Source: Bacteroidota bacterium (GTDB lineage: Bacteria; Bacteroidota; Bacteroidia; 2-12-FULL-35-15). Taken from it: DNA of 64,000 bases. Below the pieces are notes generated by a model. That model saw only the letters and a program-made list of their open reading frames with translations. It was not told where the DNA came from and ran no database searches. Made by a program: the position numbers and the translations under genes. Shown piece by piece: positions 1-7,046 of the stretch (position 1 is the stretch's first letter; every line of letters begins with the position of its first letter). Location: assembly GCA_947449315.1 (NCBI GenBank), contig CANFRC010000003.1:1-64000 (forward strand), written 5' to 3'.

Positions 1-98
1 AGTCCAATGCCCCCTTTTGCTGTTGCATCGTGTTAGGTGTTGTTGATGCACCGCTCCATAATAAATCACACAGTACTGAAGTAGGTGAGTTTTAGATG

Positions 99-138
99 AA
101 AACATTGCGCTTATCAAGCCTGATAAGCGCAATGTTTT
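99..138. terminator. Bidirectional rho-independent terminator
   Basis: An 18-bp perfect stem (AAAACATTGCGCTTATCA and its complement) with a 4-nt loop AGCC. The arms end in A and T runs, so it could act on both strands. On the minus strand it would end a transcript started at the promoter at 486-516. Confidence 0.75.
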
Positions 139-143
139 TATCG

Positions 144-381
144 CAGGATAGAATTATCTTTTTTACGGCAAGCCAAAATCGTCTGACTCCTTAAAAAATG
201 CTAAAATGTGATTTGACTTCCTTACTTCTTTCTTCGAACTTTGTCAAGTCGTTGAAACGATGAAATCGTTTGAAAGTGAACTTTCACGATTCCTATCGCA
301 ACGACTTGGGAAGGAAAATCTCCTTTGACTTTTTAAGATGTCGGACGAATAAAGGCCGTATAAAATTTCTGATCTATCCTG
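144..381 (-). ncRNA. Putative structured RNA made of nested inverted repeats
   Basis: Nested complementary segments span about 238 nt. Read on the minus strand, from outside in: CAGGATAGA with TCTATCCTG; ACGGC with GCCGT; TCGTCCGA with TCAGACGA (one mismatch); CTTAAAAA with TTTTTAAG; GATTT with AAATC; TCCTT with AAGGA; AAGTCGTTG with CAACGACTT. Two small hairpins sit in the centre (AACGAT/ATCGTT and GAAAGT/ACTTTC). A promoter lies just upstream and a terminator just downstream on the minus strand, which favours that strand. I do not recognise tmRNA, RNase P, SRP or group II intron signatures. A DNA structure such as an origin of transfer is an alternative. Function is unknown. Confidence 0.5.
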
Positions 382-485
382 AAAACAACCACTTCGTGTT
401 GTCGTGGTGGCGTCAATTGCACCTTAACTAATTTGTAGGGTTGCAAATTGCCTCTATACCATTCCGTTTTGGTTTGCTAAGGATG

Positions 486-516
486 CAAAATTACACGCTT
501 ATAAAATGTAATTCAA
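486..516 (-). promoter_or_regulatory. Bacteroidota-type promoter reading left
   Basis: On the minus strand TTG (514-516), a 20-nt spacer, then TAATTTTG (486-493) match the Bacteroidota consensus TTG-N19/20-TAnnTTTG. Transcription would start near 479 and run through the nested repeats to the hairpin at 99-138. Confidence 0.6.
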
Positions 517-676
517 TTAGCCTAAATATCCAAATCATCGAAAGGGCTTTATTGCACAGAGGGCTTTGGACTTACCATCATTAGGAGGGTTTTTGAAGCA
601 AGAATATTTTAAAATCCACTAAAAATTGGCTCTAGGTAAATCCTGCAAAGGCTAATACAGACAAACATTTTCCTTG

Positions 677-714
677 AAAAACCTTGAAACAATTCAATTT
701 GTTTCAAGGTTTTT
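677..714. terminator. Rho-independent terminator hairpin
   Basis: A 16-bp stem around CCTTGAAACAA with a 6-nt loop (TTCAAT), with A and T runs on the two sides. It separates the unit at 99-516 from the gene that starts at 799. Confidence 0.7.
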
Positions 715-798
715 TGTTTGTTTCTTTCGACAGTTTTTGGAAGCAATATTTAGAACCGAAAATTCAAAACTAATATTAATTAAAAATCTTTAAAAAAA

Positions 799-1296
799 AT
801 GGACACAGAAACAATCTTAGATGAAATCATCGAAAACGGCAGTCGTAAAGTTATGGTTGGGTTTAGATGCTACCCGGAGCTTAGGTATAAGCAAACCAAA
901 AAAGCAGAAAGTCTTGGAATCAGCCTTAGTGAGAGCATTGAAAATGATCTCTTAAATGTGGATACAATTCTTGAGGGGAAACTATCTGCTGCCAATGAAT
1001 TAACAATGGTTAAGTCGAAGCTTTTACAGCTGACCGACCTAGCGAATAATAATAATGTCGCATTTCAGGCGGAAATAGATAAATTAAAATCTGAAAACAA
1101 TGAACTAAAAAAAAATGTATCCAATTTGTTTGAGAACCAAAAATTGTTCAGTCATCCGCGTCTTTTGGAATTATTTAGCAAGCTAAAGGGCAAAAACGAT
1201 ACAATTGAGTCTGCGGACGGGGAGAGATATTCCATTACATACAATCATCCCCGTGACCTATTAATTGCTATGATTCACTCATTTAAAACAAAATAA
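799..1296 (+). CDS. Mobile-element accessory protein with N-terminal RHH-like segment and coiled coil
   Basis: A 165-residue soluble protein that I cannot assign to a named family. Residues about 18-50 (GFRCYPELRYKQTKKAESLG, then ISLSESIENDL) resemble the basic strand and helices of a ribbon-helix-helix or MobC-like DNA-binding segment. Residues about 85-115 are a heptad-like Lys/Glu/Asn-rich coiled coil, and the last 50 residues look like a small globular domain. It is first of three closely spaced plus-strand genes (gaps of 25 and 11 nt) that converge on the integrase. By position it is probably an accessory protein of the integrative element, for example in mobilisation or partition; this is inference. 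Confidence 0.65.
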   Translation: MDTETILDEIIENGSRKVMVGFRCYPELRYKQTKKAESLGISLSESIENDLLNVDTILEGKLSAANELTMVKSKLLQLTDLANNNNVAFQAEIDKLKSENNELKKNVSNLFENQKLFSHPRLLELFSKLKGKNDTIESADGERYSITYNHPRDLLIAMIHSFKTK

Positions 1297-1321
1297 AAAA
1301 CCATAAAAACTATAAAAAAAC

Positions 1322-1492
1322 ATGCTAATAGAACAAGTACATTTTCCGAAAACGGGTCCAAACTGGACCAGTATTACTTTGTGGACCATAGCGTTCATCG
1401 CTTTAAGCGCAATCGTATATAAAGTAACAAAAAAAGATCCTGCTCCGAAGGCAGGCAGTAAAAAATTTGATGAGAACAAAGGTAAGGATTAA
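1322..1492 (+). CDS. 56-residue single-span membrane peptide
   Basis: A short open frame starting at ATG 1322, placed 25 nt after one gene and 11 nt before the next. The peptide begins MLIEQVHFPKTGPNW, has one hydrophobic span at about residues 18-35 (ITLWTIAFIALSAIVYKV), and ends in a Lys/Asp-rich tail. The expected topology is a single transmembrane helix with the basic tail in the cytoplasm. The regular spacing within the operon supports it as a gene. I do not recognise the family. Confidence 0.55.
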   Translation: MLIEQVHFPKTGPNWTSITLWTIAFIALSAIVYKVTKKDPAPKAGSKKFDENKGKD

Positions 1493-1503
1493 TCCAAATT
1501 AAA

Positions 1504-1782
1504 ATGAAAATCACTGTTGACTTACCGGATTTGCAGGAGGTCGTTGCAGCATCTGTGGAAGCTGCAATGACCGACAAGCAAGCTAAACTTTTTGGGTGGA
1601 AATATTTCACCCTTAAAGAAGCTGCTGAATTGTTGCAAGTAAAAGTTTCTACTCTGCTGGATAAACGTCAACCATACTTAACCGAGTTAGAGTATTCCCA
1701 AAACGGAAAAACATTTTGGTTTAAGAAACAAAGTATCGAGGATTTTATTACAAATCGGATGATAAAAAAATACAGGAGATAA
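1504..1782 (+). CDS. Excisionase-like helix-turn-helix protein
   Basis: A 92-residue protein. Residues about 35-80 (FTLKEAAELLQVKVSTLLDK, then a basic stretch and FWFKKQSIEDFI) fit the winged helix-turn-helix of the excisionase/MerR-like DNA-binding group common in Bacteroidota mobile elements. It ends 27 nt before the convergent integrase stop, an arrangement typical of a recombination directionality factor with its recombinase. I infer that it binds near the attachment site and biases excision or regulates the element. A plain HTH repressor is the alternative. Confidence 0.7.
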   Translation: MKITVDLPDLQEVVAASVEAAMTDKQAKLFGWKYFTLKEAAELLQVKVSTLLDKRQPYLTELEYSQNGKTFWFKKQSIEDFITNRMIKKYRR

Positions 1783-1809
1783 TCGGCAACATTAAATTAG
1801 TGCTTCTAT

Positions 1810-3105
1810 TTAAAAACTTGTAGCATTCTCCATTCCCTCATCCATACTATCAATATCCAAGTCCTTCAAATATCCTTGAGTAATTTTCGGATCTGAATGC
1901 TTTAGTGCACTCTGCAAAAATTGAATATTCCCGTTAGATTTTTTTGCGGCTATGGACGCGAAGGAATGTCTGCTCACATGCGTGCTGATTTTTTTATCGA
2001 TGCAAGCGTCCTCTCCTATCTTTTTTAGATACTTGTTTACCATGGCTGTTTTACGACCAATTTCTTTTTTATAAACTTCACTTGACTCATCCTCTATCCC
2101 ATCGCTTAAAATTGGCAAAATGTATATCGATCCTGCCGCTATAGATTTGAAATAATTTAATATCTCCCTTATCTGCGGCGTTATTTTAAATGAATTACCA
2201 GCACCCGTTTTATTCATGCTATACTCTATTCTTTCTTTTCTAACATAGGTCCATCTTAAAGTTAAAACATCTTCAATGCGAACCCCAGCCATATTAAAAG
2301 CCAACAAAAAAGCTTGCTGCACCGTTTTAATCAAAGAACCCTTTTCATATTCTACTTTAGCAAACTCTTTTAACTCCTCAATATCTAACCGCTCCTTCTT
2401 CTTAGAAATTGCTTTGGGCATTTTATAATCATCAAAAATATAATCTGCCCGAGTAATGATTTTTTCCCTAATTGCATCATTAAATAATTTTCTGATTTTT
2501 TTTAGGTTAGTATAAGCTGTTGCGCTTGTAAGTTTTTTAAAACCTATTAAATAATTTTCAAAATCTTTGAGCGTATTCAAATTGATTTGCTTAAAGTCTA
2601 AATCACCCAATTTATTTTTTTCAGAAAACGCTTTCCAATTATTTAAGACCTGCTGATAACCTTTCTTTTGATTGTAATTAAGCATCTGCATCATTTTTAC
2701 CTCCCAGAAAGGAACAATTCTATTGGACAAAACAGATCTTTTTACGCTATGAATTACCAATTCCGGAGTTAGTTTAGGAGTTGTATGAACAACTTTTTTT
2801 GAAGATACTTCTCCTCCTAATTCTTTAACAACTGTCTGAAGAGCGTACCTATCATTCAAAACCGCACTAGCAAAAAGCACATCATTATAACTTTCAATCA
2901 AAGCTTTTAAATCAGAATTAATCCCATGGTGATTTGGGTGATTATGCACCCATTTCATGTTGTGATTTTTTGCCTTAAATTGATTTTGCTTGACTGCAAT
3001 ATTTGCCTTGACTCTTTTCTTCTTGTTTCCCTCTTGAATACGCACATAAATTTCAAATAACCCATTTCTGTTGGGTTTTGACGATAATTCTAAAGCAGCT
3101 TTCAT
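1810..3105 (-). CDS. Tyrosine recombinase (phage-type integrase)
   Basis: A site-specific recombinase that integrates and excises the element. All catalytic residues are visible, numbered from the ATG at 3105: Arg276 (AGVRIED), His376 and Arg379 (HVSRHSF), His403 (LKHSDP) and the nucleophile Tyr412 (TQGYLKD). The N-terminal ~90 residues resemble the arm-type DNA-binding domain of Bacteroidota integrases, followed by a SAM-like core-binding domain at about 120-220. An upstream ATG at 3156 would add 17 residues, but a TATCTTAG -7-like element at 3137-3144 lies inside that extension, so I prefer 3105. It sits next to the tRNA-Glu 3' end, the likely attachment site. Confidence 0.9.
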   Translation of the reverse strand: MKAALELSSKPNRNGLFEIYVRIQEGNKKKRVKANIAVKQNQFKAKNHNMKWVHNHPNHHGINSDLKALIESYNDVLFASAVLNDRYALQTVVKELGGEVSSKKVVHTTPKLTPELVIHSVKRSVLSNRIVPFWEVKMMQMLNYNQKKGYQQVLNNWKAFSEKNKLGDLDFKQINLNTLKDFENYLIGFKKLTSATAYTNLKKIRKLFNDAIREKIITRADYIFDDYKMPKAISKKKERLDIEELKEFAKVEYEKGSLIKTVQQAFLLAFNMAGVRIEDVLTLRWTYVRKERIEYSMNKTGAGNSFKITPQIREILNYFKSIAAGSIYILPILSDGIEDESSEVYKKEIGRKTAMVNKYLKKIGEDACIDKKISTHVSRHSFASIAAKKSNGNIQFLQSALKHSDPKITQGYLKDLDIDSMDEGMENATSF

Positions 3106-3150
3106 TTTGAGTACGGTTAAATGGTTGATTTTACAGCTAAGATAGAGAAC

Positions 3151-3171
3151 ATCCACCTATTTATCCACCTA
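3151..3171. repeat. Two 9-bp direct repeats upstream of the integrase
   Basis: ATCCACCTA occurs at 3151-3159 and again at 3163-3171, spaced 12 bp apart, just upstream of the inferred integrase promoter. They could be arm-type recombinase or excisionase sites, or an operator. Confidence 0.5.
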
Positions 3172-3213
3172 GGAAAGAAAAAATCCTTGCAATCTATTGA
3201 TTTACAAGGATTT
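3172..3213 (-). terminator. Terminator downstream of tRNA-Glu
   Basis: On the minus strand a 9-bp stem AAATCCTTG/CAAGGATTT is followed by a run of Ts. It ends the tRNA-Glu transcript before the integrase promoter. Confidence 0.6.
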
Positions 3214-3228
3214 AAAAGTTATTAACTG

Positions 3229-3300
3229 TAGCCCGTAGGGGAATCGAACCCCTCTTACCAGGATGAAAACCTGGCGTCCTAACCCCTAGACGAACGGGCC
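3229..3300 (-). tRNA. tRNA-Glu (anticodon TTC)
   Basis: A 72-nt cloverleaf on the minus strand. The acceptor pairs GGCCCGT with ACGGGCT, with a G-U pair at the terminal position. The anticodon stem CCAGG/CCTGG carries TTC in the loop, and the T arm contains GGTTCGATTCC. CCA is not encoded. The 3' end points toward the integrase, as expected for an integration site at a tRNA 3' end. Confidence 0.95.
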
Positions 3301-3317
3301 ATTTAATTTTGGGAGTG

Positions 3318-3347
3318 CAAATGTAAATGAAAAAACCTTTTCTGCAA
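3318..3347 (-). promoter_or_regulatory. Promoter of tRNA-Glu
   Basis: On the minus strand TTG (3345-3347), a 19-nt spacer and TACATTTG (3318-3325) form a full Bacteroidota-type promoter 18 nt upstream of the tRNA 5' end. Confidence 0.75.
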
Positions 3348-3373
3348 AATATTTTTCACATTTTACTGAAAAA

Positions 3374-4069
3374 TCAATCAATTTCATCACTATCTGCCTG
3401 AAAACGAAAGCCTAAACGTTTTCCTGTCTTCACTTGCATACTTTCACTCGCTGATTGCATTTCCAATACGCTTATTTCTTTGATAGCATCGAAAGGAGGA
3501 GTATAAAGATCAAAATTCAGGCAATACAGGATAGTTGACTCCAACACTGCTTTTAATGCTGCTTCATCAACTGTAGCGTGAACAAAATCATTATACAAGA
3601 AACCCAATTGCCTTTTTCCCTCTACAAAATAATGATTTTCTTTATTTATAAAAATACGGCCAATAATATAACCCAGGTCATTTACACGGCTATATTTAAA
3701 GGAGTCATTCAAAAAATTATATATATTGATCAATCCACAGAATGAACGTGAATGATCTTCCTTTAAATAGGAACTTTTCCAGATTTGATGCCCTTTGTCG
3801 AATTCAAAAATATTGGTGTGCATTGCAAAAATAAGAAGGTCACCTGCAACTCGAAGTTCAAATTCAAATTCGCCCTTTTCTTTGTATTCAATGATGATTC
3901 TTTTATCAATTGTTGCAACCACCTTCGATAACTCCGCTACCGTTTGTTTTGCAGTAATTTTCAAGGTTGTAAAAGCACGAAGCATATTTGCATACACATC
4001 TTGTTTCATACTTGATTTTTCTTGGAGCGTTTTTAGAATCAGCTCACGCGGTGTCTTCTTTTCCATCAA
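3374..4069 (-). CDS. Conserved hypothetical protein downstream of proS
   Basis: A 231-residue soluble protein with no signal peptide or transmembrane segment. Charged helices fill residues 1-65, and a mixed region around 65-190 contains FEFELRVAGDLLIFAMHTNI and an aromatic stretch HQIWKSSYL. The C-terminus is Glu/Asp-rich. It lies 21 nt after the proS stop, so it is probably co-transcribed. I recognise it only as the kind of uncharacterised gene found next to proS in Bacteroidota; no function can be given. Confidence 0.75.
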   Translation of the reverse strand: MMEKKTPRELILKTLQEKSSMKQDVYANMLRAFTTLKITAKQTVAELSKVVATIDKRIIIEYKEKGEFEFELRVAGDLLIFAMHTNIFEFDKGHQIWKSSYLKEDHSRSFCGLINIYNFLNDSFKYSRVNDLGYIIGRIFINKENHYFVEGKRQLGFLYNDFVHATVDEAALKAVLESTILYCLNFDLYTPPFDAIKEISVLEMQSASESMQVKTGKRLGFRFQADSDEID

Positions 4070-4090
4070 AAATTAGTTAGGAATAATGTA

Positions 4091-5563
4091 TTAATAAGCT
4101 CTTGCAAAAACAACACGCTGCGTTGAAGGGTTACCGCTGTAAATACATTTCCCAATCTCTTGCTTATTATCTAAAGGAATACAGCGAATTGTGGCTTTTG
4201 TTTCCTCTTTTATTTTCTGTTCTGTTTCAGACGTGCCATCCCAATGAGCCATAACAAAACCCGGAGCCTCTTCTAACACGCGCTTAAACTCTTCATATGT
4301 ATCCACATTTGTGGTTTTAGCCTCACGCATAGCCAATGCCTTTTGATATAAATTGTCTTGGATCTGTTGCAACAGATGCTCAATTTTATTTTCCAGATCT
4401 GCTTGTTGAAGTGTCTCTTTCTCCATGGTATCTCTTCTTGCCACCTCAACGGTACCATTCTCCAAATCTCTTCCACCAATAGCAATACGAACAGGTACAC
4501 CTTTTAATTCATATTCTGCGAATTTCCAACCCGGACGCTGAGAATCCCTGTTGTCATATTTCACTGTAATACCTTTTGCTTCCATTGCTCTTTTCATCTT
4601 AGCAACTACCTCGTTAATTTGTGCAAGTTGTTCATCGTTCTTATAGATAGGAACTATAACCACCTGAAAAGGGGCCAATTTTGGAGGTAACACCAACCCT
4701 TTGTCATCTGAATGTGACATTACCAATGCTCCCATCAATCTGGTGGAGACACCCCAAGAAGTTGCCCATACAAATTCCTGCTTACCTTCTTTTGAAGCAA
4801 ATTTTACATCAAATGCTTTTGCAAAATTCTGACCTAAAAAATGGGAGGTACCTGCTTGCAACGCTTTTCCATCCTGCATCATTGCCTCTATGCAATATGT
4901 TTCAATTGCTCCTGCAAAACGCTCATTCGCTGTTTTAACACCTTTTATAACCGGCATTGCCATCCAATTCTCTGCAAAATCAGCATATACATTCAACATT
5001 TTTTCTGTTTCAATCACAGCTTCTTCCGATGTAGCATGTGCTGTATGACCTTCCTGCCATAAAAATTCGGTAGTTCTCAAAAACAGGCGTGTGCGCATTT
5101 CCCAGCGCACAACATTTGCCCATTGATTCACCAATATTGGCAAATCACGATAGGATTGTATCCATCCTCTATAAGTATTCCAAATGATGGTTTCTGATGT
5201 TGGACGAACGATCAACTCTTCATCTAATTTTGCTGTTTCATCTACTACAACGGTTCCATCCGGAGCTGTTTTTAAGCGGTAATGCGTAACAACAGCGCAC
5301 TCTTTCGCAAATCCTTCCACGTGACTCGCTTCTTTACTGAAAAATGATTTTGGAATAAATAGCGGAAAATAAGCATTTACATGGTCTGTGTCTTTGAACA
5401 TTTTATCCAACGCCTGTTGCATTTTTTCCCAGATGGCATACCCATATGGCTTAATAACCATACACCCTTTAACAGCAGAATGTTCGGCCAAATCAGCCTT
5501 AACAACCAACTCATTGTACCATTCGGAATAATTTTCGTCACGGGTTGATAATTCTTTGCTCAT
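4091..5563 (-). CDS. proS: Proline--tRNA ligase (eukaryote/archaea-like type)
   Basis: Charges tRNA-Pro with proline in the cytoplasm. The 490 residues carry class II synthetase motifs: RPTSETIIW and [20 protein letters not shown] (motif 2, about 148-168) and [16 protein letters not shown] (motif 3, about 270-285), followed by an anticodon-binding domain ([11 protein letters not shown] onward). The length, lack of a bacterial editing insertion and the terminal ARAY identify the short eukaryote/archaea-like ProRS with a C-terminal Tyr. A -7-like TATTTTTG lies upstream on the minus strand at 5616-5623. Confidence 0.95.
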
Positions 5564-5702
5564 AATCTTTTATTTATGGTATAGTATTTGTAATTTTATG
5601 TAAACTTAAGAATGGCAAAAATAGAAAATTAAACCTTTTGCTGATTAATTTGTTGATTTAAAAGATTTTTAAAATCATCCCCAAAATATAAATTCATACA
5701 AA

Positions 5703-7046
5703 ATGAAAACTTATTTAACCCTTTTAACTGTTGCCTTTTTCGTACTAACATCATGTACAACACCTCAAGGTGCTCAGTCAAATGGCTACAGCGATGATAT
5801 TTATTATTCATCTAAAGATGCCGCGGCTGAAAAAGAACAAAAAAAGGCGGAGGAGGCTAAACAAAAAGCTGAAGAAGCCAGACAAAGAGCTGAAGAAGCC
5901 AATAGACAAGCTGAAGCTGCAAATCAAAGAATTATTGATGCAGGAAAAAGTGAAACACCATCCACTGACGACTATTACACGCCTTCCGACAAGAGCGCCA
6001 CAGTGATTAACAACACGACTAACAATTATTACGACCAACCATTCAACTACGATGATTATTATGATGATCAATATGCTGTTCGCATAAGGAGATTTCATAA
6101 TTATTGCCCAAGTTATGGTTATTATGATAATTACTACACAAACTCCTATTGGTATACTGGCAACCCTTATAACTATGGGACAAGCATTTATATGGGATAC
6201 AATTTCTGGGGGCCTTCCTATTATAGTTTTGCTTACAATCCCGGTTATGGTTATTATTCAAATATGGGTTGGGGATACGACGCTTGGTATAGCCCATGGG
6301 GATATAGCCCATACGGATACGGAGGGTTCGGTTATGTATACGGGTACAACCCTTATGGTTACGGATACGGATATGACCCATATGGTTACGGATACAATTC
6401 AAACAATTATTACAACAGCTATGATAACAACAGTTATTACTATGGCCCAAGAAAAACAACTGGCGGAAATGGACGCGTAAGCACCCAACCGAGCCTTGCT
6501 CACAGAATTATGGATAACCCTGAAGGACAAGCAATCTTAAGTCCTAAAGATAATAATAGAGGTGGCGGGAATGAAATCCGTAATAACGGAGAGATTAATA
6601 GCAACGGCAGTATCAACCCTGCATTTATTAACCGTCCAGAAAATAATAATAATTCAGGTAAGCCTCCTGTAAATAATAATAGCAGGCCTATTGACCCGGC
6701 AACCCCATATGAAAAACCTTCTAGTGACAATGGAAACGCTAAGCCGGTTAATCCACCTTCTGATAGAAATCAGCCGCCTGTGACTATTCCAAGTGAGAAA
6801 CCGGTAACTCCTAACCAAAATAATGATAGGACAAGACCATCGGAAACACCTCAGCCTAGATACGAGCAACCGAAATACGAACAACCAAAATCTGAACCTA
6901 GGTCTCGTCCTGAATCATCACCTAGAAGTGACAGGAGCACTAGTTCGCCGCGTAGCAGTTCGTCTTCATCTTTCAGTAGTCCAAGTGGCGGATCAACCCC
7001 TTCCAAAGGAAGTAGCAGTTCATCTCCTTCAAGAGGCAGAAGATAA
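5703..7046 (+). CDS. Low-complexity Tyr/Gly-rich surface lipoprotein
   Basis: A 447-residue predicted lipoprotein: signal peptide MKTYLTLLTVAFFVLTSC with the lipid-modified Cys in the lipobox LTSC. Residues about 45-80 are an Ala/Glu/Lys heptad coiled coil. Residues about 105-250 are extremely Tyr/Gly/Asn-rich with YGYGYDPYGYGY-type repeats. Residues 280-400 are Asn/Pro-rich, and the tail is Ser/Arg-rich. There is no enzymatic domain. The composition suggests an extended outer-membrane-anchored protein, possibly structural or peptidoglycan-interacting through the coiled coil; this is inference. A strong terminator follows. Confidence 0.8.
   Translation: MKTYLTLLTVAFFVLTSCTTPQGAQSNGYSDDIYYSSKDAAAEKEQKKAEEAKQKAEEARQRAEEANRQAEAANQRIIDAGKSETPSTDDYYTPSDKSATVINNTTNNYYDQPFNYDDYYDDQYAVRIRRFHNYCPSYGYYDNYYTNSYWYTGNPYNYGTSIYMGYNFWGPSYYSFAYNPGYGYYSNMGWGYDAWYSPWGYSPYGYGGFGYVYGYNPYGYGYGYDPYGYGYNSNNYYNSYDNNSYYYGPRKTTGGNGRVSTQPSLAHRIMDNPEGQAILSPKDNNRGGGNEIRNNGEINSNGSINPAFINRPENNNNSGKPPVNNNSRPIDPATPYEKPSSDNGNAKPVNPPSDRNQPPVTIPSEKPVTPNQNNDRTRPSETPQPRYEQPKYEQPKSEPRSRPESSPRSDRSTSSPRSSSSSSFSSPSGGSTPSKGSSSSSPSRGRR

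Follow-up and report, generated by a model that had tools for sequence, protein, structure and literature searches.

The gene cassettes of integrons are usually interpreted as protein genes, each with one promoterless open reading frame (ORF), and those without a gene as promoters; cassettes that lack an ORF are an acknowledged exception (PMC8876359; PMC11014356). In Xanthomonas, the small RNA (sRNA) sRNA-Xcc1 is a non-coding RNA of an integron cassette, spread between species and described as opposite in orientation to the array (PMC12444791; PMC8876359). Gene-less or ORF-less cassettes from Vibrio and an oral metagenome carry attC, no ORF and possible promoters on either strand, and the available text of these reports does not present them as a family of homologues sharing a conserved, covarying structure (PMC11014356; PMC6557892). 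Here we describe an ORF-less cassette with such a structure at the start of contig CANFRC010000003.1 (C3, 230,914 bp) of a Bacteroidota bacterium (assembly GCA_947449315.1); the window analyzed is the first 64,000 nucleotides of this contig. An earlier note, made from the sequence alone, had placed here a minus-strand RNA gene of about 350-380 nt with its own promoter and terminator, beside an integrase in an apparent integrative element.

Comparison of flanks and homologues identified the stretch 36-427 as a single ORF-less integron cassette, which is the whole unit; it is almost certainly mobile as such. We consider it fairly probable that this mobile cassette of ~390-435 nt has one structured RNA as its content, most likely a trans-acting regulatory RNA. 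It differs from sRNA-Xcc1, which is small and whose widespread cassette also has symE, in that a ~400-nt multi-helix fold fills the whole cassette, no ORF is present and the host belongs to Bacteroidota; the two are set apart by their descriptions, not by sequence. Integron-borne RNAs and gene-less promoter cassettes are already known, and the new element here is a cassette family of the structured-RNA type, of which no earlier report was found in the open-licence literature. The features of the locus are as follows.

36-427, minus strand: ORF-less integron gene cassette body, 392 nt, with attI on its right and an attC start on its left; homologous cassettes are flanked by attC or attI elsewhere, and ORF conservation is nil.
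1-41, minus strand: start of the cassette's attC (CCTAACACGATGCA..., R'' box), cut by the contig start; recognised by sequence and by the same position of the attC R'' boxes in the related loci L014 and L084.
428-521, minus strand: attI-like site with the crossover G at 428 (...AAATTA G^TTAAGG); the same sequence follows the intact recombinase gene at C3:230682.
486-516, minus strand: Pc-like promoter TTG-N20-TAATTTTG, recognised by sequence and by enrichment of its class (18 of 55 loci, 0.9 expected).
522-550, minus strand: remnant of an integron-type recombinase gene, its final 29 nt including the stop codon; 293-550 matches C3:230657-230914, a stretch within which the intact gene terminates, at 96% (blastn).

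In the array direction the cassette body begins with TTAAGG..., immediately behind the crossover G of GTT. The opposite end of C3 stops within the same hairpin: it carries an intact recombinase gene of 371 codons, then attI, then half of this cassette at 96% identity. The RNA gene extent given by the earlier note is too short, since the unit includes outer helices P2 and P1 that are kept in relatives. The search found no protein gene covering the hairpin stretch, which the earlier note had named as a refutation, and no conserved ORF in the cassette or its relatives, so that the usual one promoterless ORF is absent.

Relatives of the cassette were found, with its own genome included, in nine genomes from six families. 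In G206, which belongs to a different family, the order recombinase, attI, element, attC and ORF cassette repeats the layout of the window. The element sits between two attC sites in G008 and G018, and the copies in G274 and G016 are likewise flanked on both sides (attC-body-attC); in these five genomes the element thus lies between an attI or attC and its own attC. In G297 it heads an array without an integrase, with attC downstream. The two copies in G274, which lie 11 kb apart, share 461 identical nt, and to their right the sequences part exactly after the AACGTT crossover; these junctions show a cassette that moves as a unit and breaks at G^TT. The attC scan of arrays holding the element gave 17 sites on the same strand, none on the opposite strand and 1.4 in shuffled sequence, and the cassette starts have a common GTTnnnnnnAATTG-like pattern. 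The integron cut-and-paste system has moved the cassette between bacteria that are only distantly related. Its attC flanks are not clear in G229 and G135, and the copy in G025 is decayed.

Model hits in G115 (inside an efflux-pump gene) and G364 (other repeats) were rejected as chance, and a blast hit in G056 was discounted as lying within a protein-coding region. BLASTN against phage and plasmid records gave no match; a pattern scan of viral contigs returned 26 contigs, none of them real by the model.

Between the two identical copies in G274 (locus L128 on contig C21, ~1960-6530, array orientation) lie a DNA methyltransferase-like ORF and large ORFs that resemble a restriction-modification system. 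Two decayed solitary copies were seen in the cassette's own genome, at C3:212110-212314 (74%) and C9:57268-57395 (69%), outside recognisable attC arrays; these are possibly insertions at non-classical sites.

The nested complementary segments reported at 144-381 are present, and the region folds strongly on either strand (z about -9). The minimum free energy (MFE) of 95-480 is lower on the plus strand (-135.8 kcal/mol, z -9.9) than on the minus strand (-128.6 kcal/mol, z -8.6), and in both cases none of 100 shuffles was as low. Across the window, L014, L015, L084 and L114, z ranges from -4.7 to -10.5 on the array strand and from -6.6 to -14.6 on the other strand. Separately computed MFE structures of the window, L014, L015 and L084 concur on one layout, and L114 fits the same plan: an outer stem P1, followed by P2 and by a junction at which a long arm meets hairpin P7, where the long arm has P3 at its base, the core hairpin P5 and a hairpin with an AGTCAA loop. 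In the window the parts of the fold are these.

382-395, minus strand: 5' arm of P2, pairing with 78-93 (GAAGT..GTTTT with AAAAC..ACTTC); kept in relatives.
78-93, minus strand: 3' arm of P2, with a conserved TAAAAC-type end; kept in relatives.
373-380, minus strand: 5' arm of P3, pairing with 145-152; the sequence differs in all five of five relatives, with full pairing in each.
145-152, minus strand: 3' arm of P3, pairing with 373-380.
245-308, minus strand: core hairpin P5 (CAAGTCGTT.../AACGACTTG; GAAAG...CTTTC, AA bulge), the basis of models R1 and R2.
210-220, minus strand: AAGTCAA motif in the loop region after P5; AGTCAA is identical in six of six aligned members and lies outside R1 and R2.
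95-142, minus strand: hairpin P7, kept in relatives; the T run is not.

The strong 18-bp hairpin with a T run that had been taken for a terminator is real, but it is the conserved helix P7 and belongs to the fold, because P7 is present in relatives (L014, L015) where the T run is absent. Covariation in homologues had been named as a check on the RNA gene: P1, P2, P3, P5 and P7 change on both sides yet pair, and the compensatory changes expected of a structured-RNA family were found for P1, P2, P3, P5a and P7, in few sequences and in MFE-derived helices. Pairing per base pair within versus across sequences is 1.00 versus -0.73 for P3, 0.95 versus -0.32 for P1, 0.97 versus -0.06 for the outer part of P7 and 1.00 versus 0.55 for P5a. 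A small purpose-written structure-aware aligner was used for the alignment, in which conservation peaks in P5, the AGTCAA region and P7. Members left out of model building were found by the model and bear AGTCAA. Overall, the whole cassette folds into one conserved nucleic-acid structure, probably RNA.

The Rfam search proposed by the earlier note was run against Rfam 15 and gave no relevant match at E up to 5 for the window and up to 1 for the relatives; no known family was matched at its gathering score. The absence of evident signatures of tmRNA, RNase P, 6S, group II intron and ωRNA, as noted earlier, is borne out by this result. The cassette resembles the large RNAs of Rfam (6S, RNase P, tmRNA, GOLLD, ROOL and others) in its large, multi-helix, non-coding nature, but has no relevant model match. 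Retron, group II intron, tmRNA, omega RNA and transfer origin were rejected as candidates, with no partner gene and no model match, and the integron context fits better; in particular, the DNA transfer origin suggested by the earlier note found no support.

As the structured strand we tentatively favor the window plus strand over the minus strand of the earlier note, because the energies of the fold, the counts of G·U pairs and a conserved internal promoter of the Bacteroidota type lean that way. The better z was obtained on the array-opposite strand (window plus) for the window, L014, L015, L084, L114, L123 and L121, and on the array strand for L113 and L124. Read on the array strand, the mismatches in conserved helices are seven A-C and no G-U, five of them in one helix, so they may represent few events. 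The internal promoter is located as follows.

212-243, plus strand: Bacteroidota-type promoter TTTG-N20-GAACTTTG, pointing into P5, at the same place and spacing in relatives.

Its pattern, TTG-N19/20-TAnnTTTG, is perfect in L015, L084 and L114 and has one mismatch in the window, L014 and L113. An Frpo-like single-stranded DNA promoter was dropped as a candidate, the -33 box being in a loop, not a stem.

Several observations weigh against a single RNA as the cassette content. The members G229, G135 and G016 are weak (E 1e-5 to 9e-4), and only five sequences align well from end to end. Helix strands were read from each sequence's own MFE structure, which favors pairing; homologous positions beside conserved anchors served as a safeguard. 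If the product is RNA, the mismatch pattern assigns the full-length fold to the array-opposite strand, and no conserved promoter was found at the 5' end of that fold. The internal plus-strand promoter would yield only half of the structure, with P1-P3 and P7 unexplained. It cannot make the whole fold. The cassette may give one full-length RNA or two overlapping RNAs, or the fold may have a DNA-level role.

The same strand evidence bears on a role of the fold as single-stranded DNA, in which the folded bottom strand would help to excise, integrate or protect the cassette while it is single-stranded. In most members this strand, which is opposite to the array, has the better fold; the mismatches read as G-T on it, and it is the bottom strand of attC that takes part in integron recombination (PMC2727003). 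However, most cassettes of the same arrays bear ORFs instead, complete attC sites already stand beside the fold, and the conserved promoter and the AGTCAA motif would be left unexplained; we regard this role as unlikely. Nearly the same low probability applies to a gene-less promoter cassette, whose promoters and hairpins would start or insulate transcription of neighbouring cassettes, with the long fold incidental or an insulator. The conserved promoter inside the cassette is of the Bacteroidota type, and the available text on gene-less Vibrio and ORF-less cassettes offers a precedent (PMC6557892), but that promoter faces against the array and would not drive downstream cassettes, and such a role needs no ~400 nt of compensated helices. 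The two decayed copies outside recognisable arrays could also suggest a decayed palindromic transposable element (a repeat similar to miniature inverted-repeat transposable elements) sitting by chance in integron arrays. This is very improbable: complete copies elsewhere begin and end at cassette boundaries, compensatory changes arise only where pairing is under selection, neither a terminal repeat nor a target duplication was seen, and the duplicate junctions in G274 largely refute it.

That the cassette product is a functional RNA seems reasonably likely to us, its RNA nature being inferred. Cassettes adjoining attI would be transcribed from the Pc-like promoter, and the conserved promoter on the opposite strand would drive another transcript, perhaps the principal one, from the P5 stem onward, so that this RNA would begin with a hairpin. 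The product would act through base-pairing or protein binding. The earlier idea of a dedicated non-coding RNA locus on mobile DNA agrees with the homologues, the covarying helices and the lack of both an ORF and an Rfam match, while its element type, boundaries, strand, terminator and integrase had to be replaced.

The recombinase that matters here is not the one at 1810-3156 near the cassette but the integron-type tyrosine recombinase at C3:229570-230682 (371 aa), of which 522-550 is a remnant. It hits models of XerA/integron integrase and of integron integrase with scores that fall short of the TIGR02249 and NF040815 cut-offs, and has relatives at E < 1e-60 in 93 of 198 related genomes. At the 36 loci with enough sequence, the downstream attC-like sites numbered 36 on the same strand, none on the opposite strand and 0.3 in shuffled sequence (upstream counts, 0 and 4); a first attC scan was too strict, a second was moderately enriched, and the final rule was fitted to sites already seen, so the strand and shuffle controls weigh more than raw counts. 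A tandem same-strand attC array beside the recombinase is thus present, as in canonical integrons (IntI, attI, attC), which the system also resembles in its attI, Pc-like promoter, GTT crossover and cassette duplication. Unlike IntI, the recombinase is XerA-like: 92 residues separate the arginines of its boxes I and II, versus 135 in IntI4 (2a3v), and ~43 residues, the IntI-specific patch III domain, are missing. The domain around patch III is a defining feature of IntI (PMC9668308), and by this rule we classify the recombinase as integron-like and not as canonical IntI. On sequence evidence, such a XerA-like recombinase appears to head attC arrays in many Bacteroidia; complete integrons were rare in Bacteroidetes according to IntegronFinder 2.0 (PMC9024848).

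The promoter of the earlier note at 516-486 is present as a sequence, but it sits in the attI leader. It is probably the Pc of the integron because similar sequences (TTG-N20-TAnnTTTG-like) occur around the stop codon of the recombinase family in the 18 of 55 loci noted above.

Additional observations were made on recombinase loci. The 3' ends of the gene often lie within 250 nt of the end of a contig, which would be expected were assemblies to break at arrays. L060 and L071 (G159 and G128, one genus) have the same nucleotidyltransferase-like ORF cassette directly at attI, with shared sequence from GTT on. A second remnant of the recombinase C-terminus (75% identity) in the cassette's own genome (G000:C8:152624-152794) is followed by attI/attC-like sequence and then a secreted esterase-like ORF.

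The cassette is not a gene of the tRNA-Glu element that lies next to it in the window. This small integrative-element-like block (799-3300) adjoins tRNA-Glu (3228-3300) and contains a 165-aa ORF, an excisionase-like helix-turn-helix ORF and the tyrosine recombinase at 1810-3156; a direct repeat of the tRNA-Glu end was not found within 540-3400. Window 589-660 has an 82% match to G000:C18:820-891, which resembles a tRNA gene end; this is possibly an old attachment site. A strong hairpin at 678-713 (AAAACCTTGAAACAA...) with T runs on both strands is probably a bidirectional terminator.

More tentatively, and at somewhat less than even confidence, the cassettes could represent a new family of large structured RNAs spreading through Bacteroidia in integrons with XerA-like recombinases that lack the IntI-specific domain, and the cassette may encode two overlapping transcripts, the full-length fold and an opposite-strand RNA starting with a hairpin. 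Many Bacteroidia bear integron-like systems whose recombinase lacks the usual IntI-recognition domain, and for this reason they would tend to escape standard searches. If the RNA reading is true, a conserved mobile RNA would be the sole content of a cassette, integrons would trade RNA genes too, and the role of this RNA could be tested at a defined locus of which several genomes hold intact copies.
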